Origin: Paralichthys olivaceus | Lineage: Eukaryota > Chordata > Actinopteri > Pleuronectiformes > Paralichthyidae | Length of the DNA: 64,000 nt | NCBI RefSeq assembly: GCF_024713975.1 | Contig: NC_091112.1 | Span: forward strand, 19,998,501-20,062,500 | Reading direction: 5' to 3' | Shown here: positions 27,541 through 52,752 of the stretch, piece after piece | Numbering within the stretch: position 1 is the stretch's first letter | Layout: each line of letters starts with the position of its first letter | Translations under genes and position numbers: made by a program | Notes under the pieces: model-generated | What the model was told of the DNA's origin: nothing | The model's input: the letters and a program-made list of their open reading frames with translations, nothing else | Databases searched by the model: none

Positions 27541-28985
27541 CACTTCTTCTTCTTCTTCTTCTTCTTTGGATTACCGCGAATTGGCGCGTCTTCTTCTGCT
27601 TCTTTTGGCTTTTATTGGCAGTTTGCAAACAACGATTTGGTGCATTACCGCCACCTTCTGGACTGGGGCGTGAACATCCATTCAAAATGTCTAAATTATA
27701 TTTATTATTCTGAGATAATAATACAGCATTCGATAAAACTTGCTTTTTCCAGTTGTTTTGTAGGATAAGTCTTAAATCAAACTTCACTTATTTCAAGGCA
27801 TTCTTTTATTGCTCATATTTCAGACAGTGTACAATAAGATGATGAACTGTTTCCTCTTACCCACAATAATCATTTTCCTGTGTCATGTTTTCCTATTTTT
27901 GGCAACGTACTGTTTAGTCCTGGATATGACTGTTTCTTCTCTCCTGTTTCCTCCTGCCCATCTCATTCCTCCCACTTTCCTTTGAATTTGGTAAAACCTT
28001 CGTCCTTTCCTGTCTTCCTCCAATAGCTTCTGCCACCTTTCTTTCAACCTCGGTTTAATGGTGCTCTTGGTATCTGCTTCACTGAAGTTGGCTTCCACAT
28101 CAGTGCAGCTATTTTCTTTGCAGTCTCCTTAGAAAGTTTATCTGCCATTCCAAAGAAATGAAAGAATAGAAAATAATAATAAACCCATATCCTTTTAGCC
28201 AAATCTGTGTCTCTGATGCATTGAATAATCTCACAGCTAATCTTGCCAGCTGTTTGTCTGAAGAGACCTGACAAAGGTGATATCATATTTCCTGCAATGA
28301 AGTAGAACATGTTCAACTCTTCCTGCCTGGCTACAGTGTGGGCATTTTCCAGTTGGGTGCTTTCCAATTTTATGCAATGTTTGGTTGAGACCTAAATGAC
28401 CTATTCTCAAACAAGTGCTTTCCTTCCTTCGTTTCCAGCCCACCTTTCTCCCTGCACCAACACGTCTTTGTATATTATATTGATGTCTTCCTGTTTCATT
28501 AATTTCCCAGTACTCCTCCCATGTTGATTGTGCACATGTCCTAATGAATTAGTCTTGGCTAGCCCTAACCCAGAATATCAACATGTTCATTCTCCCCCAC
28601 ACCAACATGAGCAGGAACCCAAAGGAAGCATTTGAGTATACCCTCAATCTCCATTCTATCAGTTCTAAGTGATGATGTGCCAGATTGTGTGATGGTTAAT
28701 GCTGGAAAACTGTCAGATGCAATAACTCTTCTTTATTTATTTCTCCTCTATCCACTGCAAGGCCACTAATATTACCAGTGGTGTATACTGATACATGATA
28801 CTCTTCTCTTCAGGTGGAAATCATTCACCAGGACAAATACTGCTGCACCTGCACACCCTGTGTCTGGATCTTTGGGACCATCTGTGAAAATAAATACTGA
28901 CTGGTCTATGCTTGGCAATGGGAATAACCAGGGAGGAATGGAAGAGATTGTAAATGTGGGGTGTATTGTAAATGACATAATCCTA
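27541..28985 (-). mobile_element. LINE with RNase H domain and GAA tail; two broken fragments in tandem
   Basis: Read on the minus strand. RNase H starts near 28900 ('FIFTDGPKDPDTGCAGAAVF') and continues to 'LWVPAHVGVGENEHVDIL' near 28570. Then follow 'NIQRRVGAGRKVGWKRRKE' and a CCHC-like knuckle with 'LRIGHLGLNQTLHKIGKHPT' and 'VEHVLLHCRKY' (28443-28250). A second, partial copy of the same junction ('MADKLSKETAKK', then 'FYQIQRKVGG') occupies about 28160-27883. The 3' end finishes in (GAA)n (27541-27567 on the plus strand). Stops and frameshifts show it is dead. RNase H plus this C-terminus fits the I-like group of non-LTR elements; the exact clade is uncertain. Confidence 0.75.
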
Positions 28986-33838: not shown

Positions 33839-36800
33839 TCAGTCCATCTTCTCCTTGTGAACCAGTTTGGGGGCGTCCACAAAGTCTTGGCCATTAAACA
33901 AAATGCTAGTGGCTGTAATGGCACTAGCAGCCCCCCAGAACATCACATATGCCAGCGTTTCTGTCCATGTGTCACCTGGAAGATAAGCAGCAGTCATTTA
34001 CGCTGGTTCTCAAAACGGCAGCAACTTTAAATTAAGTTCCTTATCGAAACATTCTGTTGAAATGACGTTGGTTTAAAAAACGCAATGTAAGTGAAGTCAG
34101 ATTTTCTTTGCACCACAGTTCTCCTCTCCTTACAGCTTCTTTTTTACTTTTTGTCTGCAGCCCTGCCACACACATGTAGGTCCAGACTGAAGAATCTTTT
34201 TAGGCTTCAAGGAGTTTTTCTTTTGTTTCACACCAATAACTACAGTGCATATGTTTTCTGCAGCTAACATAGAGCTGTACTGTGCTACAGATGGAGGACT
34301 GGAGTTTCTGCTGACATGCTGCCCTCAGCGTGGAGATAGTACAACAGTTCATTGCGGCCACTCTCGTGCTGTTCGTCCCTATAATAACTACTGCTGAACC
34401 ACTAACCACATTCTGTGAATGTCCACATTTAGTTGGTGTTCCTTCTCAGTCTGATCAATCAATCTACACAGATAATCAGACAAATACTGGTAAAACTTGT
34501 CAGGTGTAAAACAGAGTGTGCCATGCAGCACATCTCACTCGTCTTTTGGTGCAGTCAGACAGGATTTGATTTGCTTCCCTGCAGCTGCCAGGGTTTAATC
34601 TGAGTCGCATATGCATATAATCAATAGTCACGCAATATGCGTTTTAAGATATGTTAGTATGGAAAGAGATTATTTCTGAAACAAAGCTAAAAGGCTGTCT
34701 GGACGGAGAGATGCCATATTATTATACAGAGCCTTACAATGTTTGTAAGGAGCAGTGCAGCTCTTTACCCAACACAAATACACTTTAAACATTATCAGCA
34801 GAGAGGAACCTACCAGCCATGAGAAGACACACGATGCACATGGAAAATGCAACCAGCATAATGATGGGCAACTGCAAAGAATAATAAAAATTCATTGGAT
34901 TTAACCAAGATTCATATTCACAGTTGCTGCTGACTACAGAGACAATACTGATGTACTGACCGTGAGGAACTTCCAGTCCTTCTGCACACGAAGGGGAGTG
35001 GGTCCATCTGACTCATCGACAGCAAAGTTACCCAGAAACAGATCAATGGAATCCTGCAGCCAGGTCACAAATCATAATTTCATTAAGAGTTTGATCAAAA
35101 TATTAAACTTGAAACATAATTACACAAGCAGTTTTCTTCAGGAGTAATACATCAGCAAAGTGCTACATACATTTTTATATATATATATTCTGACAAATCA
35201 TGTCATATACGTCATACCTGTCTGAATCCATCAGAAAAGTTGTTTTTGTAGTAGCGGATCATGGAGTTCCAGCCATCCATCAGCAGCCCCAATCTCGTCC
35301 TCTTCCCTGTCCTGATGGAGAAATGACCTCTGATTAGACAGCAGATTATCATAACAACATTGCGGAGGGCCTCCAGAGTATGGCACACTTTAGTCAGTTC
35401 ATATTTGTTAGCACACTGTACCTTGTGAAGTCTGTTTTCAAGGCTCCAGTTCCTGCGTACTGAACTGCACAAGCATTGGCATTGTCAGCCCATGCTGGTT
35501 AGAGAGCGCACACACAGTGAACACAGTGAGAACACGCAGAGAGGTTACACTTTCTACTTAAACACACAACACATGCTAACAGTCAAGTCACACCAGAACA
35601 AGAGTTACCATTCTTGTAGATCTTTTCAAACTCAGCCTGCTCTTCTATTTGCTGGCCCACATTCAGAACCCCCATTCTCTGTCAAAACACAGCCAGAATA
35701 CATACAGCAATATGGTCAACAGTCGGGATTCAAAAGTTGTATTTATTTCCACGGTAGCTGAAAACATGCGTTTAAAAGGGTTATAACAAGCTCAATCCAA
35801 AGCGTCAAAGTGGCAATTCATTTACTGAATTAAAAAAACTTTGATGCTTCATATTTCTAAATGATTCACAGGTCAATCGAGCTACACAATGACTGAGCAA
35901 ATTCTATCTATGACAGAGAACAGACTTTTTTTATCAACATAGCCTAAACTGGAATAACAAATATGTTCTGTGAGGTACATATACAACTCATAAATTAATA
36001 AATATATTCTGCCAGGAAGTGATGGCATGATGTGCACTCTTGTCTCATTATTTATGAACTTCTGCTGAACATCCAATTTCCCAACAACAGTAGAAAATTC
36101 CCGCCTCAAAAACTATAAGACTTGAAGACATGCAATAACCATTAAAACATATATTATGAAACTATTGTGTGATTATTTTACTGTTCTTAGATGCTCAGCA
36201 GCAGTGGGATTAACAATACCTGGAGCTGAGACTGTAGGGAGCGCCGGGCCAGCAGACTCTGGATGACATTGGTCCGGTCCAGGCAGTCCATGCAGTTACT
36301 GCGGAAGACTCCTCTCTGCTGGGCCACAGTCTTCCCCTCTGAGCTCACCATGAAGTAGCTACACACAGAGACAATCTGAATACTCCTTTACAATAAGCAA
36401 CATCATATTCCCCTAGAACTGTTACTGATTAATCTACCTGTATTCATCCTGTGTCTCAGTGACAGTTTCTACCAAGATCTGCAGACGGTCCCACCGCATA
36501 TGGCTGCACTCTTTGTGGAAGTCGAAGGCGATGTAACTGAGGACAGAGGAGACAATGAGACAGTGAGTCATCACGTAAGTTAAATCAGGTTGGTTAAAGC
36601 CTGAGGGTCCATCGGTTCAGAAATGGAAAGTAACTATACAAGAAATCTCATACGTGATTAAAGAACGACATATAGTTAGAAATGAAAAGTGGAAGAGGTA
36701 TGAAGCATCAATTAATTTAGAAAATTATATAAAATGAGTTTAAAAGGTTAAAGTTTTCTCATTAAAATTAAATTCTTTGCTTGGTTACAGAGGCAGCAAA

Positions 36801-39800
36801 ACCAATATAGTCATTCTAGTTTGTAAAGAAAGCTGAATGGACAATTTAAATGTCTAACAATTACTGGGCAATAACACAGTCAGTCCATTCACGTTTGCTT
36901 CAGAAGCATTCAGATATTCAATATAATTCCATCAAAATAAACCAACACAGCTTCCACTGCTGAACACAGTATTTGTTATTTGTTAAATATAAACACATTT
37001 TCTCTGTTTGTCTGTCGTACTCTTAATGCACTGTCAGTCTGCTACAAAATCCAGTTCTGGACTGACACCACAGATAAAATGAAATGTATTGGGGGGGTGA
37101 TGCATATGCTGCATGCATCAATATATACCACAATGGGAATGCTAGATTATTTATATTGTAATAAAGCCATTTCATCATGATGTCATCGTGACGTCAATTA
37201 TGCTACATGATGAAGATTAATGGTTAATCTAAATAAGCTGTAGTTTGTGTCTCTAATATTATTGGCAGCAACATGTAATGCTGTAGTGCAGTGTTGATAA
37301 TGGCATCATTATGGTATTATTCTTCCATAGGATTACAGATTATTTTGTCCATCTATATAAACTCTAGGTTGTGTCTATAGTTCAACAGGATACAGAGATG
37401 CCTGGAAATGCATTTTTGAACTACATGATGTCATTTTCTGACTGTGACTTCTTTATGACATCACCTATCACACACAAATATGATAAGTAATAAAGGAAAT
37501 AATTCTACTAATTATAACCCTTCCAACCATATTCTGACCATATTTTTGTATATCTTGACCTTTGACTGATCAGCTTCAAAAATTAATAATCTGGAGATTC
37601 ATAACAAGTAATAATCACATCAAGTTTGGTGAGTCTGTGTTGTCGATTTTTTTCGCGTGCACACAGATACTCACACACATGCACGCACACACACAAACAG
37701 GGTAATAAGAGAGCAGAATAAAACCCAGGTACAGTGATTGTGCAGGGGAAAGAACAGATTACTTACCTGCTGCAGTTTTACTGTAACCAGGTTACTACAG
37801 CACATGTGTTCTGTGTGACTGTGTACTCAGTGACTATAAAAACTGTGCAATGCATTGAGGGACACTTACTTGAGCATACCATTGTTCATGACTGACACCA
37901 TGTTGGCAAAGGCCTGTTCTAGTGGCTTCTCTGAGCCCTTCTGATTCACCTGCAAGAAGAAGAAAACCCCAGTTGGCCAAATATGAGTAAAGAGTCTTTT
38001 ATATATGTGTTAATAAAAAGAGCTCAAAAAAGGGCCCTCACCAGGTTGAGAATGGTTTGCTTCCCGTAGATGAGGAGCTGAGACTCAAAATGCCTCTGGA
38101 AACCATCCATCTGTACAAAGGTACAAGCTGTTAACATCCAATTTTCATATCTATCACTATTCTAAAAAGACACACAACACATCCTCTTACGCGATTGGTG
38201 GCTTTGCTGATGATAGGTTTAGGCTTGTATTTGAGGTTTGGCCTCTGACTCCAGTAAAAGGGCATGGAACCTCGTGTCTGGGGATGAAAACATTGCCAGG
38301 TCACTTGTGAAACTGTGAGCTTCTCAAACTTATATGCTTTAACATCTGAGTTAAAAGTGGCACAGAGAGAAGGATCCATCATTTAACAGTATTCCAGCTG
38401 GACCAGCCCTCATACTTGCCTGTACAAACGAAGCCTTTGCTCCCTCATACAAAACGATTTGCTCTGTCTCCACGAAGTTAGCAGCATGGCCTTCAGAGTC
38501 AATACCTGTGAAGACAACAAGACACTCTTATGAGCAGCGCCAGTGGTGAGGTCGACAACGTTATACCCTCTGCTACTGTAGAACAGAACACAAGCTCATG
38601 TTAAATGTATTTATAATGCGCATATATATATGCTTCCAGTCTTATCGAACGCTCAAAGTGCTCTATCACACACCATTCAAACACTGCCGGCACAACTGGC
38701 AATTTGGGTTCAGCGTTCAGTCGACATGCAGACTGGAGGAGCTGGGAATCAAACCACCTACCTTCTGGTTAGTGGACGACCTGCTCAATCTCCTGATTCA
38801 AAGCTGCTTGCCAAAGCTACAGCCAGCCGTGGTTTGTCTCCACAGATGACAATGCAGTTTCCGGCTTGTTTTTTTAAATGCATACCTCTTACGTAGTATC
38901 TGACACCGGCCCGGAAGCAGCTCCTTCTGGATATGAGGATCCACTCGAAGATCTTCCCGTTTATACGACATGGCTTCATGACAATGACTGGATCACAGTG
39001 GTCAAGGAAAGGCTCAGTTCAGCATCTCATCTCATCCTCTTTGCTACTCTACTCTACTCTCATTTCATCTCATCTACAATGACTCCAGACAGCCCATGCT
39101 CCACAATAAAATTTGAAAAAACTTCAGTGAAAAGGATACATCCATGGACAACAGTAAGTGCAAACTTATGAAGCTATGGGAAAATAGTCACACATGTTGT
39201 TATGAAATAAAATGTACAAACAAAAGTACAAAACCACTGCATGGCTGAAGAACAATTGGGCCACAGGTCAGGACATTTGTTACCTCTGGCTGTGCAGCCA
39301 GTTCTCTCAGCAGGTTCCCGTTCCACACAAACCTCTGGTCTGCCTAAAAACCACAACACACTATTCGTCATTCACACAAGCAAAAGCATATGACAACACT
39401 TTACAATAAGGTGGTGTATCTGATACATTACCAAGTGACTTTAGATAATGTAGTTTTATGTAATTATCTTTAAATGGAATATATACGTAAATAATTTGAA
39501 CATTTGATATATCTCATTTTAAATAATAATAATAATACATCAGAAATCCAGTACTTTATGATCACGATTATTGTAAAATAATCTATGATTGATTATTTAT
39601 GATAAATCACTGACTGTAGTGTGGACAACTGGATATCTCACCCTCTCCAGTAGACTCATCTCCTGGAAGTCGGGGCTAGTGTTGGCCAGCCGTTGCAGAG
39701 TGTGTGTCAGGTCGTAGTCAGTGCAGAAGTAGAATCCGTCTGTCGTCAGCACATTGTTAATCATTGACAGGAAGGTCTTATTCTCTTGAGACTGGAGGAG

Positions 39801-42800
39801 GAAAGAAAACAGACTTTCAGTGTGCAGGAAAATTCCTGATTATGCACTTTGCAGAGTGCAGGAAACTGCAAACTTGTACATTGAACTTGTATGTGTACAG
39901 GATTTATCCTTTTCAATCCAGACACCTCAGCTCTATCTTTGTATGACTGACAGGCATAAAATCCATTACACACCATGGCTTGTATTTATCAAACTCCTGA
40001 GAATTACACCAAGGTAAATATCGGCCCAGGTATCATCAAGCATCAGGTATCGAACTGCAAAAAGCCCAATTTTGCAAAGATAGGAAAAAAAAAAAATATT
40101 CTGAAATCTATACCAGAGGCAGCATCTCTGCATTAGCTTCCAAAGAATATGATTCTTTTTAAAGCTTTAAATGGCCTGCTCTCCCAATACAGGTCTGAGC
40201 TTCTTTGCCTCCTTTCCACTCCAAAAACTCTCAGATCCCCTGACCAGATGCTCATGGCTCTGCCTTGGTCAGTTGTTCTAGGTTTTTTTTTGTTGCTGCT
40301 CCAAACGTTTAGAACAGTTTACCTTTTACAATCAAGTGTTCCACAGACAAATTTAAAGTTAAACTAAAGACCCACAGGTTTTTTCAGGCTTTTGAGTGCC
40401 CCGAGTTGTTGTATTCACATTTTCAGGACCATCTGACAGAGCAGGTGTAGTGTGAGGTGACATTCATGCTAGATTTAGTCTAATACAGCACTGACAGTTG
40501 TATCAGAGTGAGTTTTGTGCTTTTTTGAGCTTTGTATATTTCTGCCAGGCTAATAGGATCTGACTGCTAAGCCAGTTAGCACAGAGAGGGAAGCCTGACA
40601 TTTCACTGTTCACTCACTCCATCTGCTTTCTTACATTCCTGTCACTTGGTCAGCTCTTAGCTTTCCTGGATGGCCAGTCATGACACTACGAAATAAAACC
40701 CACAAACGAACAAACCACACTAATTCCCTACAACCTACGGAAGAGTATTTTGGTTGGGCAAAAATGAGAAGAGAATTTTTTTTTCTATTTTGCATTTCAA
40801 GAATAAAGTAAAAATGTTAAGGGCAAAGTTCTTTTTTCCAAATCAAGAATAAAGTTGAATTGTCGAGAATAAACATTAAATTTTAAGACTTAAGTCAAAC
40901 TTTTAAGAATACATCAAAACTACTATCATTAGCAGACTGCCTCTACAAAAGCCTTGTTTAGACGAACTAGTAGAAACTGTACTTCAAAATCAGTTTTAAG
41001 AAGGAAATATTTTCTTAGCTCATTAACACAAGCTGTTATCAGACATGACCTCTTGAGGAACTCCGGAGAATTGGGCCTGGAAGCAGCTACAGTGTGATAA
41101 TCAGTATAAGGCCTTTGAATAGATACAACATAAGCTTCGGAAGCTGGAACAAAATTAAATATTACTCTGATTTAATTCACCTTTATTCTTGGCGTTTTGA
41201 CTTTCTCCTCCAAATTTCCACTCTACTCTCGAAATGCAAAGGGATTTGAATCATACAGCTTCAAGCTAAGATACATGTTTAATTAGCATAACAAAATGGA
41301 AGGGGCCACAGATTAATAATGCACTGCCTGCTTCGCTGAAGTCAGATAGCATAGCATGCTACCAGAATGCAATAAATAATGATCATAATCATAAGATCTC
41401 AGTCAGATAGAATAGATGTCTGAGAAACCCAAACAGGTTGTCTGAATTTATACTTAATTCTTTTTAATGCATGATCTGTTGAGTGCAATGTGTTTCTTTT
41501 ATTTACATTTTATGGTTCAGCCTGGAAAAGCAATTTTAATAGTGTTGTACAAAATACAACACAATTAAAATGACAATATAGGCTTTGTATTATGGCTTGT
41601 ATTATTCTAATATTCGAATTTCCAAACCACTCAGCAGCGGCATTGACAATCTATTATCAGGAAATCTATTATGGACATAAGTTGTACTGTGACTGCTGTT
41701 GGTCAAAAAGGTCATGAGAAAATAAGGTGACAAACTGTGGAAATGTAAATGTATGCTTTGCGCATTCAATCCAGCGGAGGAGGCTAGCAAGTGGTACTAA
41801 ACACCGTTTTCAGACATGATCTGCAAAGGAACTCAAGAGAGATTCTCCGCTCAGACGGGTTCACGACAGCAACAAATCCTGTTTTTAAGGTTATAAGGTG
41901 AGGCGTGGTGCAGTGCAGAGGCAGGATGTAGCATGTTATTATTCTGCTGCTGAGATCACATTTTTGTTTATAGCACATCGCAACCGGCATTGGCTATTAT
42001 CACCACACACTCTCTTTACATATTCGTCGGTGTCTTCTGTGTGTGTGGCACCGCTTTTTAATGCTGAGATATTTGTTCTCTTTTTGTTTTGTTTTGTTTT
42101 ATTAAATTTTGCTCTTAGTAAATCTGGCAGAGGATCTCCTGCTGTGTTCAAGCTAATACAGACTTTCACTTAACACACAACTGCCTAGGTTTTATTTGGG
42201 GAAGTGAATGTGCAGCAGTGGAAGGTGTTAATACAAGTGCATTTTTCTACATTATCTTTACACTACAGTACTGAGCGCACAAGTTTTCTGACCTGGATCT
42301 CGGAGAGGTGTAGCACTGTCTTCTTGTAAGAGATCACGTCAAAATCCACAGCCTTCCACACTGCGTGGCCCAGGAGGCTGCCCACATTCCTCTTCCTGGT
42401 GATAACGATCAGGTACATCCCTGTGTGGTGAAAGTGGTCAGCCACAGCTGTTTCACTGTCACAGAATACAGAGCTGCTCCACAGAGCACTGACAACACAG
42501 TATTGTATTACAAAGGAACCTACCTGCTACCAGGCGAATGGTTCCCATGATGCCACATATAGGCTTGGTGACTGCCGAGGGAGGGACATCCTTTTTACCT
42601 GTGAGAGCAGCAATGTGTTTAAAGACTTAGATGCTTTATATAAAAAGGAGTGATATTCTAACTTTAATCTAGATTCTAAACTTTGAACGAACTTGATAAG
42701 ACTAATAAAACAAAGACAAACATACCCATATGGCATATAATGTGATCTATGCCAATACTTTCACCCATATAATGTACCATACCATACTGCATCATTCCAC

Positions 42801-45800
42801 CAAGCTTTGTGGAAACATGTCCAGTTGTTTTTGTATATTCATGCTTATAGATTAAAAGTAACAGTTTTATGACCGTGTATCAAGGACATCACAAAGACTT
42901 TCTACCTGTAAGGGTCATCTCATTTGAAACCCTGTCAATTGCCAGCACAGCATCAGCCCCCTCATCACAGGCTTCAATGAAGAACTTCTCTGGAGTTGTG
43001 TGCCTGGGAAAGAACAAAGAAAATGTTATTCAGGAGTAAAACTGCAGCTTGCTCATCACACACATCTATGCCATGTTCTCCTGCTCCAGCACACATGTAT
43101 TTAAAGCTGTGGTGAGAAGAAAAGCATCAAATCAAAATGCAGGTTTGATGAACATGACAGGGGGTTCAGTGTACTTCAATGGCAAAACCCCGTCCCCAGA
43201 AGTGAATCCAAATAAAGCACCAGGTGAGTGAAAAGCATATGGATGCAGTCTGACTCCGTGTCACATCCATAGCTATGTGACCCCTGAACCCCCTGCGGAG
43301 GTCTTTGTGAAGGACAATGATTTTATAACCAATGGTCAAGTGGTGTTGGGATCATAACACCATGTACTGTAATAACAGAAGCTACAGTAAAAGTCCAGGT
43401 ATGCACATTCATTCAGGTTATCATCATACTCTCTCCCCATTTCTAAATGACTGACAACAAAAACAGCTGGAATAGGAAAAGGCAAAAAGAAGCAGAAAGT
43501 CTATTGTGAGAAACCGTTCATAATTAAATGAAAGTCTGGTATGGATGCAACTTTCCTATAAAACCACTTGATTGAATATTCAATTAGATCGACCAGAGAT
43601 GGCAACATCTTGAGAAATACAGCTTTAAATCCCTGCGGTAGAAAAAAATGATCTTCTATTCAGCCTCAGGGAAGTTTGGAGCTCAGGGTGATGTAGTGAA
43701 ACACTCAGCTGCTGTAGCAGTGACAAATCCATACAAACACTGTATTGTTGGCCTTATGTAATCTAGACCAAACTAAACATGCCTGTGCTACACCCACACA
43801 AAGTAGTTTAAACAGTTCAAAATCACACTTTGATGAATTTCAATAAATACACTGATAAATAAATAGTTGTAATGTTAGGAATCCGAGTGAAAAATATAAA
43901 TATTAGTAATGTAGTTATATAAATGATTTGAAACCTGGGGTTCAGAACTTGAAACTAATGAATAGCAGCTTAAGTCTGAGTGGTCACGAGATGACTAATA
44001 CGATAGTGAACGTTCTTCTGCTTAACTAATGATGTAATCATTCTTGTGCTTGTTTTTCTTGACTAACTTCAAGGTTCTCAAGAAGAGCTGAAACCCCATC
44101 ATTAAGATAAATACTGAGGTTATGTCATGTCATTTCATTTGCAACCACCGCCTTCACGAAAAATGAGTCTTTAAATGTAAAAGAAAGAATAATGTGACAT
44201 TTATCAATGTCAAAATGTTTTAAACATTTTTATCTCTTGAATATTTAATGTTCGTTAACACATTCTTTTGCAGGGATTAGATTAAATGGATGTAATAAGA
44301 CTCAGTCTCACTTAGCAATGGGAAGTTAGAGAAGGTTGTGCCCACATCATTTTCAGAGCCCAGGCTCTATCACTCTATGGACAACTGTTCTCCACTCTGA
44401 CAGAGGGGTTGATTCTGCTTTTGTCCCTTTATCTAAAACGCCTGCAGTGTGTGATCTAAATGAGGACCACCCTCTCCCACCCAGCCTGGACCCTCACAAA
44501 TTTGCAACTAGAATCAAAAGATCCATCCAGGATGCCATCTCCACTGCCTCCTCTCAGTCCTTGCATACCTTGAAAATAACACCTACATCAAAAAGCTGTC
44601 TGGTGATTTCAATTCAGCGTTCAATACAACTACATCACTTGACTACCCTACTCTGCAGTTGGATTTAGAATTTCCCCACAAAAAGGCCCCAGATAGTGCA
44701 GATTGGCAGTCAACCCCTCCATTCCGGTGGAAATCTGAGAACCTTCTAAGGTTTGTGCACTCAGCTCCCTCCTATTCCGACTCTGCACCAGTGACTGCAT
44801 TCTCAGATATGGAGAGAGCTGTATTATTAAGTTAGCAGAGGACACCACCATCATCATCATCATCAGCCACGTTACAAATAATGAAGAGGATTCATATCAG
44901 TAGGGACTCAACAATCTTGAGTGGAGCACAAGAGAACAACCTGCTGCTCAATGTCAACAAAACCAAGAAGCTCAAAACAATTCTTTAACAAAAGTTTTTT
45001 TTTTAAACATGAGAAGGGACATGAATCCCAGGCTCCTGATAAATGATCATTGTTTGACCCATTCATCCACCATGACCTCCTCTATATGCTTACTTTGTTA
45101 CATGCTACCCAACCTGACTGCCTACTACCACCTTTCTGGCAGAAAGCCCTGATCCAACCTCGCCCACTACTCTCTACACTTCTTTAAAATGCACAGTAGA
45201 TGAGCAACACTCTGGTCATGATCACACCAACAATGTACAGGTGGTAGGGAACACAAGTAGGACTGAACAGTTTAACTAATAATGCAACATTAACAAAGGT
45301 GTGTCGGGAAAAGCACACAGAGCTCTGTCAACTTTCAACAAAGCTGTAGCATGACTGGCTCTTAAGTCATGAGAGCCAGTGAACAGTTACCATACAGAGA
45401 GGTGTGTGTCGTAATCCAACAGTCATAGCTCCACCTCTGAAAGGAATGTACAGAACTGGATGTGGACAATGGATATATTATCTACCTACTGTCTGTCTAG
45501 CTTCTCTAAGACATGGACCGAAAATCAGACAACCTCCAGAGATGCTCCAGTGGGACTGTATGTGAGAACGCAAATGTCTGAGTGACAACCTCTGGACTTT
45601 CTCCATCCAGCCCACTAGTAAAAACTGAGCAGAATATCCGAATGAGCCGATGTGTGAAAACAGCAGGGGGATCGGCTGCAGGATTCTGAGCGAGTGGGTG
45701 TGTTGATGACGTTTCTAACATGTGACTGGACAGATGCAAAACTGAAATAAACGGAAAGAATACACATGTCGGGATGAAAAATGCTTGCCACACATGTAGA

Positions 45801-46788
45801 AGACACCAACGAAGATGTCAACGCTTTTGGTGTTCAGGGCTGACACCACTGTCGAAGTGCTGTAAATGAAAACATCTCCACAACGTAATTTCTGACACTG
45901 CATCCTGTCTCTGCCTGCTGCACCACCCCACACCTGAACGCTCCAGAGACTTCTGTGTTGTGAACATGCCTGACCTGAGAATCTCCTGCTGCGTTGTTCA
46001 CTGTATAAGACAAACTCCAGAGAAAGTCCAAACCGGACATCCTCTGGAGTTTATGTCTGAAAACAGCTGTATGTGGATTTCGGCATTAGGTACATTCACT
46101 ATTATTAAAAATGTCAGTTTCATTTTATCACAAGCATTGACCATAAAATCTTCGCTGCAGATAAATCAGGTAGGATGAAAGGAAAGTTTTCTTCACTTCA
46201 CTCTGCAACAAAGACTGTTTACTAAATGCTCTGCACACAGACAACACAACTTCTATTGTAGAAGTGTTACAAGAGGACTCACTAATGACAAGGAAATACT
46301 ATGAAGTAGACTGAAGCATTAACACAGGCCAAGACAACTCATTTCACACAGGCACGTATAGACAGCCACGCTAGCTTATAAAAGCTTTTACATATATTCA
46401 ATCTCTGAACCCCCATCAGGCCGTTGATGACACGGAGCAGGCTAAACACACATCCCCTGTGTGTGCGTGTGTCTTTGTGTGTGTGTGTCTTTGTGTGTGT
46501 CTGTCTCTGTGTGTGTGTTTCACTCCACACTCTTCATAATGAATGAGTGTGGAGTGAAACTTGACTGCTTCTTGCTCTACCAGCCGAGCCTGTCAGCGAA
46601 CTTCAGCCGCTGTGTCATCTGACCCGACGCCGCTCCCGGACCGCGGCTGCGCTCTCATCCGGCTCGCGAGCGTCGCCTCTTAGCTGTCCTCTGACGGACA
46701 TGGACGTGAGGAGAGCGACCTGAAAAACAATGAGGATTAACGCTATTGCGTGTACTTACAAATTGTATCTTTCGTAGGCGGTCGCCAT
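33839..46788 (-). CDS. sacm1l: phosphatidylinositol-3-phosphatase SAC1
   Basis: Twenty coding exons join in frame to 586 aa (human 587): 46760-46788, 42906-43003, 42524-42598, 42293-42420, 39642-39791, 39284-39343, 39140-39173, 38886-38987, 38420-38505, 38191-38277, 38042-38110, 37870-37949, 36438-36536, 36220-36358, 35609-35678, 35422-35494, 35218-35311, 34961-35053, 34814-34871, 33839-33975. The Sac domain carries '[11 protein letters not shown]' and the catalytic CX5R motif '[12 protein letters not shown]', with Cys388 and Arg394. Two membrane helices lie near 523-542 and 549-569, and the C-terminus is 'KEKMD'. SAC1 is an ER/Golgi enzyme that removes phosphate from PI4P and PI3P. One donor is GC (after exon 9) and exon 7 is only 34 nt. 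Introns hold LINE and MITE debris; intron 1 (3.8 kb) and intron 4 (2.5 kb) are the largest. Whether it is the a or b paralogue cannot be told. Confidence 0.96.
38640..38840 (+). repeat. teleost interspersed repeat in sacm1l intron
   Basis: The order 'cttatcgaacgctcaaagtg', 'gacatgcagactggaggagc', 'gggaatcaaaccacctacct', 'gttagtggacgacctgctca' follows a common fish repeat. It lies in the short intron between sacm1l exons 8 and 9, so it is a transposon insertion rather than coding sequence. Confidence 0.6.
40135..40490 (+). mobile_element. LINE (L2-like) C-terminal remnant in sacm1l intron 4
   Basis: Plus-strand frames contain '[16 protein letters not shown]' and '[13 protein letters not shown]', then after a shift '[15 protein letters not shown]'. 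This is the conserved end of fish L2-type proteins. It is antisense to sacm1l, broken, and has no RT core. Confidence 0.65.
41036..41100 (+). mobile_element. end fragment of hAT-like MITE
   Basis: 'tatcagacatgacctcttga' followed by 'ggaactccggagaatt' is the terminal part of the 'TTTTCAGACATG' MITE family. The rest is absent. Confidence 0.45.
41805..42150 (+). mobile_element. hAT-like MITE, copy in sacm1l intron 4
   Basis: Starts 'accgttttcagacatgatct' and shares 'gagattctccgctcagac', 'ggcgtggtgcagtgcagagg' and 'cagaggatctcctgctgtgt' with the full copy at 13851-14416. The right end is truncated. Confidence 0.7.
44330..45250 (+). mobile_element. LINE reverse-transcriptase remnant in sacm1l intron 1
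   Basis: Plus-strand frames show pieces of a Rex/CR1-type RT in order: '[19 protein letters not shown]' (like the F-A-Y-R..RS..DA motif), 'DFNSAFNT', a damaged catalytic-site region with 'IIKLAEDTT' where FADD would be expected, and '[14 protein letters not shown]'. Frameshifts, stops and loss of the FADD aspartates show it is dead. It is antisense to sacm1l. Confidence 0.7.
45520..46070 (-). mobile_element. hAT-like MITE, reverse copy in sacm1l intron 1
   Basis: Reverse of the 13851-14416 element: 'gagaatctcctgctgcgttg' and 'ttctctgctg'-type blocks, ending 'ttatgtctgaaaacagctgt' at 46070. Length is close to the full copy. The left end is decayed. Confidence 0.7.
46455..46520 (+). repeat. 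GT microsatellite
   Basis: Interrupted (GT)n array with 'ctttgtgtgt' units, directly joined to the perfect hairpin at 46517-46560. It lies in sacm1l intron 1. Confidence 0.85.
46517..46560. repeat. perfect 16-bp inverted repeat, 12-nt loop
   Basis: Left arm GTTTCACTCCACACTC (46517-46532) and right arm its exact complement (46545-46560). The loop 'ttcataatgaat' is itself nearly self-complementary. It sits about 200 bp inside sacm1l intron 1. Confidence 0.85.
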
Positions 46789-46990: not shown

Positions 46991-47610
46991 ATGTAAGTAA
47001 ATACTAGAAATAAGATCTCTAATTTCTTTCAAATGTCCACTGTACACTGTGAATTCGTTTTTAAAATATTGACTCTGATTCACAGATGATGCTGAGCAAA
47101 TCGGAAAACAACGAAAAACGTACTCATAGCCATATATTTATGTACAGAATATGCTCTTGTCATGCACGGGTACATGTTTGATTCAGGTATTTATTTCATG
47201 CTATGTATATAGTTTTTATTCATCAGTAATAATAGCTAAGAATTATAGATAATAATCACATTTTTTGATGTACACAGACCACTCTTGTATTTGACCCATG
47301 TCTGTAATTCTATTAATTTGAAATAGATTTTTTTTTAAATCCCAAAATAAACACCTCTTGAATTCACATTTTACTTTGTCAAGATTGTTCATGTCAATTT
47401 ATTTTTATGCCTTAATAGTGTGTAACAACATATATGTACATTATGGTTATAGTGTAAAACTATCTCTTAACTGCGTTATTTTACTTTCCTTTCTTAAAAT
47501 GTACTTTTATGTCATGATAATATAGAATTTGCACTGATTTCGGTGGCCGTCAAAAACCGGCAGTATTCAGGACACCTAAAGCAGGCGGAGCTGTTAAGGA
47601 CCCGTATGTA

Positions 47611-47640
47611 TATAAACCATGGACGGGCCCATGTGCAGTC
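47611..47640 (+). promoter_or_regulatory. TATA box and 5'TOP start of the snoRNA host gene
   Basis: TATAAA lies at 47611-47616. A C followed by pyrimidines ('CTTTCG') begins at 47640, 29 bases downstream. A 5' terminal oligopyrimidine start is characteristic of vertebrate snoRNA host genes and ribosomal protein genes. The exact start site is inferred. Confidence 0.65.
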
Positions 47641-48590
47641 TTTCGTCGAGGCCGCAAGATCCTGACTGACGCAAAGGCATACCGAGAGGAAATCCGAACA
47701 AACAAGCTCTCCCCAGAGAGAACTAGAGGTAAATGTAACGTTTGGTAATTGTTTTTTAATTTGCTTCTCAGGTTTGTGTGGTGACAGGACGTGATAGAAG
47801 GGACTGCTGCGTCTGCAGTGGTTTTTCTGTGCTCGCCACGTGGTGTGGTGAGGAAAACGTACTTGGCCTAAACTCTGATCTTTGTTCCCCTGCAGACGAT
47901 AAAATGAACCTTCACTACGAGTCTGCACAGCTCATGACAGAGTGTCGAAGGAACTTTTGCAGAACCACTTGGAGGGACGAATGAAGTAAGTGCTTATCAG
48001 ATCATAGGGGTTCAAACAAAGTTGGATACAATTAAACCAGAAGTGCTTTACTGTTATGCATTTCAAAATCTAAAATCTGATTTCTTTAGTTATGATTTAA
48101 ACAAAAACATAGATTATTGTGTGGAAAGATGTCAGCATTATGTAATTATGTTTGAACATCTGCCTACTCATGAGTGATATAGACGTGTTGTTCAAACATG
48201 GTAGCAGCACCAATTAAAAATAAATCCCCCCCCATCAGTTTAAGGACTGGTGCTTGAGTCATAAACACTAGATCTAAATGTGACTGAATTTGACTCAAAA
48301 TGGGCAGATTTTAGAAGATGAATGTCTGACCCTGAAAAGCAATACTAAGCATTAAACTATAACTGCATGAAATATGACTGATAATTGGAAATTCCCCACT
48401 CTGCTTTTTCAGGATCAAGAATGATTGATGCAGAGGTCAACTGGGGCCTCCTCAGAGCTCTGAGGGGAACATCTTTGTTCCCTTGACCCGGACCTGTGTT
48501 CTTCTTTGGAACAAGAATAAAGTCTGTGGCCATGAACTGATGGTGAGTGTCTGGGACACCATGTGGCCACTATATGCTGTAAAACCCAAT

Positions 48591-48661
48591 ATGGCACTGA
48601 TGATTCACTAGACTAGAGTCTCTGATAAACCATGAAGCTCTTTCACAGTGCACTGAGCATG
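48591..48661 (+). ncRNA. snord52: C/D-box snoRNA, SNORD52-like, copy 1
   Basis: C box CTGATGA at 48597-48603, D' CTGA at 48622-48625, C'-like 'catgaag' after it, D box CTGA at 48653-48656. The terminal stem is weak (atggc/gcat with a bulge). The guide before D' ('gactagagtc') is the perfect complement of the 28S rRNA segment GACTCTAGTC. The D+5 rule points at the U of GAC-U, which I equate with yeast Um2421 (snR78), the site assigned to human SNORD52. The segment before D ('ttcacagtgc') is complementary to the 28S bases a few positions further on (GCACTGTGAA). It ends ~70 nt upstream of the intron 3 acceptor. Confidence 0.8.
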
Positions 48662-48804
48662 AATATAGCTAGTTCTTTATGCTAATGCAAAGATCACCAC
48701 TGGTTCTAATACAGTTCCTTGTTCTCTTCAGGTGTCTACATGAGGGGGACTAGATGGCGCCTCCTCTAGGTAAGTGTGGGATCTGAAAGAGCTCTGTTCT
48801 CTGT

Positions 48805-48882
48805 TTATGTGGAATGATGACATCATAGACTAGAGTCTCTGATAAAAGCATGAAGATGTTTCACAGTGCACTGACCACATAA
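48805..48882 (+). ncRNA. snord52: C/D-box snoRNA, SNORD52-like, copy 2
   Basis: C box ATGATGA at 48814-48820, D' CTGA at 48839-48842, C'-like 'catgaag', D box CTGA at 48871-48874. An 8-bp perfect terminal stem is formed by TTATGTGG (48805-48812) and CCACATAA (48875-48882). Both guides are the same as in copy 1 in intron 3. It lies in intron 4, about 530 nt from the acceptor, which is further than the usual ~70 nt, so its processing may depend on the strong stem. Confidence 0.85.
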
Positions 48883-49500
48883 CCACAGCAGAGGTCTGTG
48901 TTTCAACCCATTTACTACAGTTCTCATATTACTGGTTGATATATTAAGACATTATCATTGTACACAACCATGAAATGTTCATTTCAACATTCCTGTGTAC
49001 TAAAGCGGCATAATGATAGAACAAAGACATGTCTAAGGTGTCGAGTTGAATCATCTCAGTTAATTCTGACAGTAAGCACAAACATATTATCAAATGCAAA
49101 TGTTTGGCTGATCCAAATTTAAATAAAGCTTCTCCATTACCAATTAAAAAGAGCACGAGGGACTTATAAATAGTCTACATCTGGTAAATCACACTGAGGT
49201 GTTCAAGACATGAGACTATCACTTAGAAACTAATGCCCCAGTTGTCCAGGACCTTGCAGAAGTTCATTTTGACATTGTTCTAAAGTAGTGAAACCTGCTA
49301 TTCTCAAAGTTCAATATGACTGCAGTAATTGGGTTAAAACAGTCAAAGCTGGTGTGTGAAGCTGATCTTACCCTTGTTGCATGTGAATGACATTTTTTTT
49401 TTTGTGTTCTCTAGCTCATCCTCCAACACATTGCGAGGGGGTGAAGTGACCGTTGTGCAGCTGTAAGTAACAACATGTGAAAGTAAAGCCATATTAGTTT

Positions 49501-49568
49501 TGTCGATGATGATTCATATTTCGGTTCGACTGATGTTTACTGAAGTTTACTCGCAGCGCACTGAGACA
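49501..49568 (+). ncRNA. snord48: C/D-box snoRNA, SNORD48-like
   Basis: C box ATGATGA at 49506-49512, D'-like CTGA near 49530, D box CTGA at 49561-49564, short stem TGTC/GACA at the ends (49501-49504 and 49565-49568). The guide before D reads 'ctcgcagcgca', which resembles the 'CGCAGCGC' guide I recall before the D box of human SNORD48. It ends 68 nt upstream of the intron 5 acceptor. The SNORD48 name rests on that guide match and on sharing a host with SNORD52-like RNAs. Confidence 0.7.
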
Positions 49569-49948
49569 CTTTCAGCGCTTCTGTTGAATGTTTTGAAGCC
49601 CTAACAGTGGTGAAAATGACTGATTTCTGTCTTCAGGTTTAACTGAGGCAGCTCAAGCTAGATGACACCCTGGCACAATAACTGGACCAGGTTGGTATTG
49701 ATGAGTGTTGCAGAAAGTAAAGCTGGTTCCCAGGAGTGATGCTGAAATGTTAAGATTTCATTTCACCCCCTACAGGCGCTGCACCAGTGAGGTTAAACTG
49801 CCACAAGTGTCAATACTGGTCGACAAAAGGTCATCCAGGAAATGGAGCTGGCCAGTGGGCGTTGTCCTGTAATGTGTGCACATGGCTTATACTGACCTGC
49901 AATAATGGTTTGAACTGATGACATGCAGATGGATTTCATGAAGTTTTA

Positions 49949-49954
49949 AATAAA
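49949..49954 (+). terminator. poly(A) signal of the snoRNA host gene
   Basis: AATAAA in 'ttttaaataaaataattg', followed by a T-rich stretch ('ttgtctttttt') about 20 nt later. It closes the last exon of the host gene. Confidence 0.7.
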
Positions 49955-49975
49955 ATAATTGACAACAGACTTGTC

Positions 49976-51133: not shown

Positions 51134-51840
51134 GTGAGTTTTCAAACATCTGCCACTTTCCGGAAAACTCACATGTATTTGTAAACAATTAACCATCTTG
51201 GGTTAGCTGCTAACCAGTTAAACTTACTAGTTAAAGCCCAGTGGTTAGCTAAGACAACAATGAAGGTGCCAGTAACAGTGGCTAACTCGTGTTGACGTGG
51301 AAGATGAAGTCAAAATTCACGCTGCTCAGCTGAACTGTACATGTCTTTGGTTTTGTTTCCAGTATGAGGACCGACACGGGTTATTTCTGGAGACGAAGAC
51401 TCTGAAGCAGGAACGTTAATGTTCGTTTGCAGCTGTCGTGGAGCCGGAGACTCGGTCCGTTCAACCGACCAGACTTGATTATCGGACACACAATGTTGAG
51501 GTATTGAAGAAACACTGCAGATTCAAATGTTGCCAGGTTAAAACAAAGGCATGTAGACGAGTCAGTTGATCTAGAAGCACTGTAATGTCATCGAGTAGGA
51601 TCACCTCTTCTGTCAGCTGAACTGGCCTCACACACCCTCAGGTGTGTCCCTGGCTCGAGGACGTCATTTCCCCTGGCCCGAAACCTTGTGAACAAGTATA
51701 ACAACTTCATAGCTGCATCGGAGGTGCATGCGTACTTTTCCTATGTGCTCACAGAACCGCGCAGTCGACTGACACAAGAAGAGCAGACAACAGAGCATCC
51801 GCAGGCTTTTCTACACCTCCAACAAGCTCACTGAGAAAGG

Positions 51841-52752
51841 ATGACAGCTGTGGTAGGCAGAGCACTGGGCTGGGTGTGCTCATGGGGCAGAAGTGTCGTG
51901 TCAGACAATACCTCAGCGGTAGTAGTCAAGGGCCAGAAGTCTGACTGTAGCAGCCAGAGCCGCAGGGGGTGGACCTCTTGGCTCTGGGGTGGGTGGAGAC
52001 GTCAAAGTGACCAAAGTTCTCCAGTAGAGGAGTACTGGGAGGCTCAGGAGAGGGTTCCGCCCTTGGAAATTGAAGATCTCTGTGCAGGGAAGCAGAAGAC
52101 TGTGGTAGATTCTGGATGGTGGAATAAATATCTCCCAACTTACAATTTGTGGCCAAGAAAATCAGAACCAAGCACACTAAGTCAAAGGAAACATGATGGT
52201 CAGAGTCGAGGTGCATGGGATCATGATGTCGATGGGGACTTTTCCGACTACATAACACCACCCCCATCTCCTACACCTCCTTCCTCTCGGCTGACATCAC
52301 CTTTTCGACTCTTTGCGGACAGCTGGAAGGTTGAAATCCTACCAGAGCACTACGAGATCTGTTTCAACTTCCTCCGACACTTGTTTGACCTCTTTGTTGT
52401 TGGCTTCCTGTGGACTGTGTCTCCTCCTACAAAGCTGATCCTGGAGGTGTTGGGAGTGCAGGGAGCACTGCGGCTGTGGTTTCATGGTATGGCCATGTTT
52501 TTTGTCTCCACAGTGGGAATGGCAGGATTACTCTGGCTGATCCAGGAGTATCTCTCCCAGTTTGCTTTGATCTATGGCATCATACAGGCAGTGGTGATCT
52601 CTGTCAGTGTTCGACAGAGTGTGATAATCGGCGTGGACGAAGAAGAAGAAGATGAAAAGGACGAGGAGGGAAAGGAGACTAATGAAATGACAGATTGTAA
52701 GAAGCATAAAGAAAAACTTGTGTCTGTTGAAGACAAGGTGAAGACAAGTTAA
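51841..52752 (+). CDS. c6orf47: C6orf47-like (G4) protein
   Basis: One coding exon, 303 aa. An in-frame TGA nine bases upstream (51832-51834) makes the ATG at 51841 the first possible start. The N-terminal half is low-complexity and Trp-rich ('WTSWLWGGWRRQ' 44-55, 'GWWNKYLPTYNLW' 92-104) with a proline run at 140-149. The C-terminal half has the family core: 'YEICFNFLRHLFDLF' (171-185), 'LEVLGVQGALRLWFHGM' (201-217) and 'YGIIQAVVISVSVR' (245-258). It aligns with the human C6orf47 core of similar layout (L..LGL.G.L.LWLHG...LQALVLAVSLR). About three hydrophobic segments suggest a membrane protein. The tail is strongly acidic (EEEE at 267-270, then a D/E/K mixture), longer than I recall in mammals. 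No biochemical function is established for the family. A donor 7 nt after the stop (52759/52760) and an acceptor at 53217-53218 suggest a 3'UTR intron. Confidence 0.85.
   Translation: MTAVVGRALGWVCSWGRSVVSDNTSAVVVKGQKSDCSSQSRRGWTSWLWGGWRRQSDQSSPVEEYWEAQERVPPLEIEDLCAGKQKTVVDSGWWNKYLPTYNLWPRKSEPSTLSQRKHDGQSRGAWDHDVDGDFSDYITPPPSPTPPSSRLTSPFRLFADSWKVEILPEHYEICFNFLRHLFDLFVVGFLWTVSPPTKLILEVLGVQGALRLWFHGMAMFFVSTVGMAGLLWLIQEYLSQFALIYGIIQAVVISVSVRQSVIIGVDEEEEDEKDEEGKETNEMTDCKKHKEKLVSVEDKVKTS

Follow-up and report, generated by a model that had tools for sequence, protein, structure and literature searches.

A probable teleost counterpart of SNHG32 in Paralichthys olivaceus, with two SNORD52 copies and a guide for the SNORD48 site

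The DNA analysed here, a window of 64,000 nucleotides (64 kb) from Paralichthys olivaceus (positions 19,998,501 to 20,062,500 of contig NC_091112.1), contains on its forward strand a predicted spliced, non-coding gene of the 5'TOP type at 47640-49975. With a probability of about 0.82 we read it as a host gene for snoRNAs that is orthologous, in teleosts, to SNHG32 (C6orf48), in which the snoRNA order has changed and from whose introns three C/D RNAs would guide methylation at 28S U3925 and C1881. An SNHG32 counterpart fits best because no other SNORD52 was reported in a genome-wide search, one intron carries a guide for the SNORD48 site, and a C6orf47 homologue lies immediately adjacent. The gene is of an ordinary kind and the result a useful annotation: a likely fish SNHG32 is now located next to C6orf47, and a 2005 zebrafish MHC survey lists C6orf47 and C6orf48 both as 'NF', not found (PMC1309616). 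Among the open-licence papers listed for these snoRNAs, for SNHG32, C6orf47 and C6orf48 and for fish host genes, none has a title or abstract opening that mentions a fish SNHG32. Searches may miss it because its exons are short and the Rfam SNORD48 model appears blind to the fish RNA; passages of one survey report that automatic searches fail on fish snoRNA homologues and that non-mammals have more C/D gene copies (PMC3349704).

The gene model was read from start, splice and poly(A) signals. A TATA box (TATATAA, 47609-47615) lies 31 bases 5' of the presumed start, and exon 1 (47640-47728), whose start is inferred, opens at 47640 with a 5'TOP-like CTTTCG and closes on the donor GAG/gtaaat. It is followed by exon 2 (47896-47985), exon 3 (48413-48542, bounded by ttttcag/GATC and GATG/gtgagt), exon 4 (48732-48769), exon 5 (49415-49462), exon 6 (49637-49690) and exon 7 (49776-49970), which has an AATAAA at 49949 and an approximate 3' end. 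The first-pass annotation had proposed seven exons with no long frame, and both points were borne out in the sequence: the splice sites are consensus, the six introns (167, 427, 189, 645, 174 and 85 bases) are all GT-AG, and the predicted spliced RNA of 644 nt has a longest ATG-initiated ORF of 41 aa, a length expected by chance (ORFs of at least 41 aa arose in 340 of 500 dinucleotide shuffles of the RNA). Its first ATG, in exon 2, opens a 26-aa frame that stops at the end of that exon, with five junctions downstream. A stop codon with several junctions after it is the usual mark for nonsense-mediated decay (NMD), and the host RNA would thus be expected to be NMD bait, a fate known for other snoRNA host genes (discussed in passages of PMC7415794 and PMC6954239). 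On sequence evidence, then, the seven-exon, 5'TOP-like, non-coding gene model holds, with transcription and splicing as predictions, and the locus is a nearly complete snoRNA host gene.

Searching the 64-kb window with 4,227 Rfam families gave a single match over its cut-off, to SNORD52 (RF00276, cut-off 45 bits), at 48810-48877 on the forward strand of intron 4 (50.8 bits, E 3.6e-8). A permissive Rfam scan of 2,601 bases added a second SNORD52 on the same strand in intron 3, at 48593-48659, which falls below the cut-off (36.5 bits, E 1.4e-5). The intron 3 copy, SNORD52a, has a C box whose first base is off consensus (CTGATGA) and a terminal stem too weak for our relaxed C/D scan, and it ends 72 nt from the 3' splice site. 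Vertebrate intronic C/D RNAs usually lie about 70 nt from the 3' splice site, and a strong terminal stem makes up for poor placement in the intron. SNORD52b, the intron 4 copy, lies 537 nt from its splice site, a placement that its 8-bp terminal stem would compensate. No further SNORD52 was reported at E <=0.001 in the 588-Mb, 25-contig genome, where 64 of 302,945 first-look candidates were scored. In the six introns the relaxed C/D scan turned up one extra weak candidate, at 48315-48381 in intron 2, which we rejected as a further snoRNA because its stem is just 3 bp long and the splice site is no more than 31 nt away. No intron was found to hold more than one C/D RNA, in a scan which, having missed SNORD52a, could miss other weak-stem snoRNAs.

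Guide pairing was scored by the fifth-base rule against assumed segments of human 28S. On those segments the D' guides of SNORD52a and SNORD52b form 13 and 12 bp, respectively, each with one G-U pair and each with U3925 opposite the fifth base, while the D guide of a third C/D RNA, on the forward strand of intron 5 (49501-49568), forms 10 bp, again with one G-U pair, and has C1881 opposite its fifth base. U3925 is the SNORD52 site and C1881 the SNORD48 site (as given in passages of PMC5597630). Over both strands of the 64 kb, a CTGA accompanied by a guide of at least 8 bp to C1881 or U3925 occurs at the three snoRNA places only. Guides of at least 10 bp beside CTGA were observed once for C1881 and twice for U3925; shuffling gives expectations of 0.045 and 0.005, respectively, per 64 kb. 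Full C/D form together with a guide was found at two places in the window and in none of 200 shuffles, the strict form filter dropping SNORD52a because of its off-consensus C box. As to the assumed rRNA segments, one of six strings from the two, a 22-base string round C1881, is printed reverse complemented in PMC3025933; strings of the U3925 segment were not found in print, an exact 23-base piece of that human segment had 0 matches in the fish genome assembly, and 28S pieces had 0 and 0 matches in viral contigs. For zebrafish 28S, 60 methylation sites are reported in passages that name neither SNORD48 nor SNORD52 (PMC8393311).

The third RNA has boxes C, D' and D and a 4-bp stem (up to two unpaired bases beside the boxes were allowed in the scan), lies 68 nt from the 3' splice site of intron 5 and matches no Rfam family at cut-off. 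With SNORD48 (RF00282) it shares the D box, the C1881 D guide and an ordinary C box, whereas the rest is unrelated by both the Rfam model and shuffle tests. Its score against that model is 9.1 bits, with the cut-off at 36 (E 9.1 in a 91-base scan), and the alignment is local, spanning the 13 model positions 49-61, in which the D guide runs into the first bases of the D box. Compared with an assumed human SNORD48 sequence, its body does no better than chance, 548 of 1000 shuffled bodies being equal or better, and it is absent from the SNORD48 matches of the whole-genome search. From the sequence, it should better be labelled as a guide for the SNORD48 site that falls below the cut-off of the family model. 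The first-pass annotation had described two SNORD52-type and one SNORD48-type RNA as the set of human SNHG32, and had looked to the two Rfam models for confirmation. The SNORD52 pair stands, one copy over the cut-off and one under it; the SNORD48 label fails by the family model and survives by the C1881 guide, so that the refuting outcome named in that annotation, a lack of Rfam hits to these families, came about for one family of the two. On the whole the first-pass annotation was right. The SNHG32 counterpart itself gains from the absence of any other reported SNORD52, the SNORD48-site guide and the adjacent C6orf47, and loses something by the recognition of SNORD48 through its guide only and by a snoRNA order unlike that of the addax.

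The low family score and the shuffle-like body would also suit a third RNA that is no SNORD48 homologue at all, another snoRNA having taken over the C1881 site or the pairing having arisen by chance; the rest of our explanation may stand in either case. Position adds to this argument. In the MHC region of the addax the order of transcription is SNORD48, SNORD52, ZL8 (passage in PMC7053375), against SNORD52, SNORD52 and the C1881 guide in the fish, so that, by comparison with this sole mammal, the third RNA follows SNORD52 as ZL8 does and may occupy ZL8's place. We nevertheless regard non-homology as rather unlikely. A 10-bp guide with the correct spacing has the low expectation given above, full C/D form beside a guide for either site arose in no shuffle of 200, the host gene is of the same kind, and the Rfam scans of the locus list no ZL8 match at E <=10. 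Nor was a better SNORD48 reported elsewhere: none reached 36 bits genome-wide among the 66 of 64,840 candidates scored, and the best matches, at 25.9 and 24 bits, are at chance level, since the same search at E <=1 also found matches in 11 of 14 control genomes, all prokaryotes. Both were rejected as SNORD48 on their own sequence as well, the 25.9-bit match having no CTGA after CGCAGCGG and the 24-bit match no CGCAGCG on the strand read.

The host gene has MHC-region neighbours downstream and non-MHC ones upstream. Downstream, the host gene is followed on its own strand by a C6orf47 homologue (DUF4661) at 51835-52749 (Pfam PF15576, 7.3e-14), whose frame aligned by tblastn with human C6orf47 at 34% over 91 aa (2.8e-15). 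Exons of a valyl-tRNA synthetase follow, starting about 2.8 kb past the right end of the window; one of two exon frames was matched in PDB and one of three in Pfam, the scores are mixed between VARS1 and VARS2, and the GST domain of VARS1 was not found at these exons. Beyond lies a GNT-I family gene, presumably MGAT1. On the other side, exons of SACM1L occupy 33842-43002 of the reverse strand (of six exon frames compared, four match Syja_N, and two of these four exceed the Pfam cut-off), with a PDB match of one frame to SAC1 (8.6e-4) and a tblastn match of human SACM1L. Its first coding exon, recognized by eye from MATAYERYN at 46760-46788, lies head to head with the host gene about 850 bases from the start at 47640, so that the two may share a promoter region. 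Further upstream are a DUF2371 frame that we take to be TMEM200, a TRNAU1AP match just below the Pfam cut-off (24.7 bits, cut-off 27) and, about 92 kb before the window, an EPB41-like FERM_C frame (gene name by eye). In human, EPB41, TMEM200B and TRNAU1AP presumably lie together on 1p35.

C6orf47, C6orf48 (= SNHG32) and valyl-tRNA synthetase (VARS2, NM_006295) stand together in a gene table of the human MHC class III region (PMC1309616), and C6orf47 and the synthetase gene are thus common to the human and fish loci. At a threshold of 1e-3, neither LSM2 nor CSNK2B was matched anywhere in the 264 kb of C20:19898501-20162500. SACM1L, TRNAU1AP, TMEM200 and MGAT1 are, by our assumption, not genes of the human MHC (6p21), and synteny with that region is therefore partial; the host gene likely sits at a synteny breakpoint where an MHC-like piece joins other blocks, with SACM1L between. 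The same four genes, together with the snoRNA order unlike that of the addax and the intragenomic mobility of snoRNAs named in the title of PMC3511168, could also be accommodated if the host were not an SNHG32 orthologue and its snoRNAs had moved into an unrelated non-coding transcript. We consider such a transfer improbable, as the C6orf47 homologue and the valyl-tRNA synthetase gene directly follow the host gene and the search of the genome, at 64 of 302,945 candidates scored, reported no other SNORD52. That the locus codes for a protein, or is the dead copy of a gene, can finally be dismissed as very improbable, for although exon 2 opens a 26-aa frame and SNORD52a has an irregular C box and a weak stem, the longest ORF is no longer than in shuffles, the splice signals are intact and no second SNORD52 locus was reported among the scored candidates of the genome.

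Under the orthology that we prefer, the fish gene resembles human SNHG32 in some respects and departs from it in others. Human SNHG32 (C6orf48, G8) is non-coding after re-annotation (passage in PMC7073466), and the fish locus is likewise without a long ORF. The human introns carry SNORD48 (PMC3068486) and SNORD52 (PMC7415794); those of the fish carry SNORD52, doubled, and a SNORD48 counterpart recognizable by guide only, which has a different body and is placed after SNORD52. The neighbours on one side differ as well. The fish SNORD52 copies share with the Rfam family the boxes, the D' guide and the U3925 target. With the 5'TOP hosts of the gas5 type the locus has in common a TATA box, a TOP-like start, short exons without frames and no more than one C/D RNA found per intron, but it holds a different set of snoRNAs; a gas5-like host in chicken has a TATATAA box with 5'TOP (passage in PMC2653536), and zebrafish snoRNA host genes use both TOP and canonical starts (passage in PMC6954239).

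In the mechanism that we propose, polymerase II would start at the C/T-rich site near 47640, and splicing of the seven exons would yield a short transcript without coding value that NMD probably degrades. The three C/D RNAs would be trimmed from the released introns 3, 4 and 5 and would bind fibrillarin and its partners, after which both SNORD52 copies would guide 2'-O-methylation at the fish equivalent of 28S U3925 and the SNORD48 counterpart at that of C1881. The locus thereby offers a testable prediction for methylation of fish 28S, in which A1892 may be included for the following reason.

Each of the three RNAs can pair a second time with rRNA just 3' of its main target, which suggests, tentatively, that they could be double guides or rRNA clamps, with Am1892 as a possible fish-specific mark. 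Through its D' guide, the third RNA forms 9 unbroken bp (-12.1 kcal/mol) and would direct methylation to A1892, 11 bases from C1881; shuffled guides did equally well or better in 37 of 5000 cases against the 3' flank alone and in 280 of 5000 against the whole C1881 segment. We know of no methylation at A1892 of human 28S. The D guides of SNORD52a and SNORD52b form predicted duplexes of 12-13 bp round C3937 (-16.0 and -13.9 kcal/mol), equalled or bettered by 9 and 13 of 5000 shuffles against the 3' flank only; in these duplexes the sixth guide base is mismatched and a bulge interrupts the helix, unbroken pairing in the U3925 segment is at most 5 bp, and the two results are not independent, as the copies share the D-guide sequence. 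Among the 793 15-mers that precede CTGA on both strands of the window, the RNAs themselves included, 4 reach -12.1 kcal/mol, 8 reach -13.9 and 1 reaches -16.0. Unlike the fish copies, the consensus of the SNORD52 family does not pair next to the rRNA target (-4.6 kcal/mol, 867 of 5000 shuffles), and human SNORD48, in the sequence assumed here, is also without the extra pairing (-7.5 kcal/mol, a value without shuffle control). Additional base pairing is already known as an aid to methylation (van Nues 2011, cited in a passage of PMC6124571). We keep the double-guide reading tentative because the choice of flank followed inspection of the sequence and because human rRNA stood in for that of the fish.

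The wider region also contains repeated and retroelement-like sequence. Within the window, frames at 27886-28548 of the reverse strand look by eye like the terminal part of a reverse transcriptase of LINE type; two of the three were compared with Pfam and gave no match at 0.01. Also by eye, frames in L015 (5127-6113, reverse strand) and L016 (7414-8514, forward strand) resemble a LINE-type reverse transcriptase, and long frames in L016 (2-3636, reverse strand) and L017 (8301-9911, reverse strand) a Gypsy-type retroelement. About 82-100 kb past the right end of the window, a 416-aa coiled-coil frame is tandemly repeated every 2.8-2.9 kb, with three full copies in L011 (1874-8891) and, in L012 (447-9999), three more and a further, frame-broken one that runs up to the end of L012; one copy compared with Pfam gave weak coiled-coil matches only.
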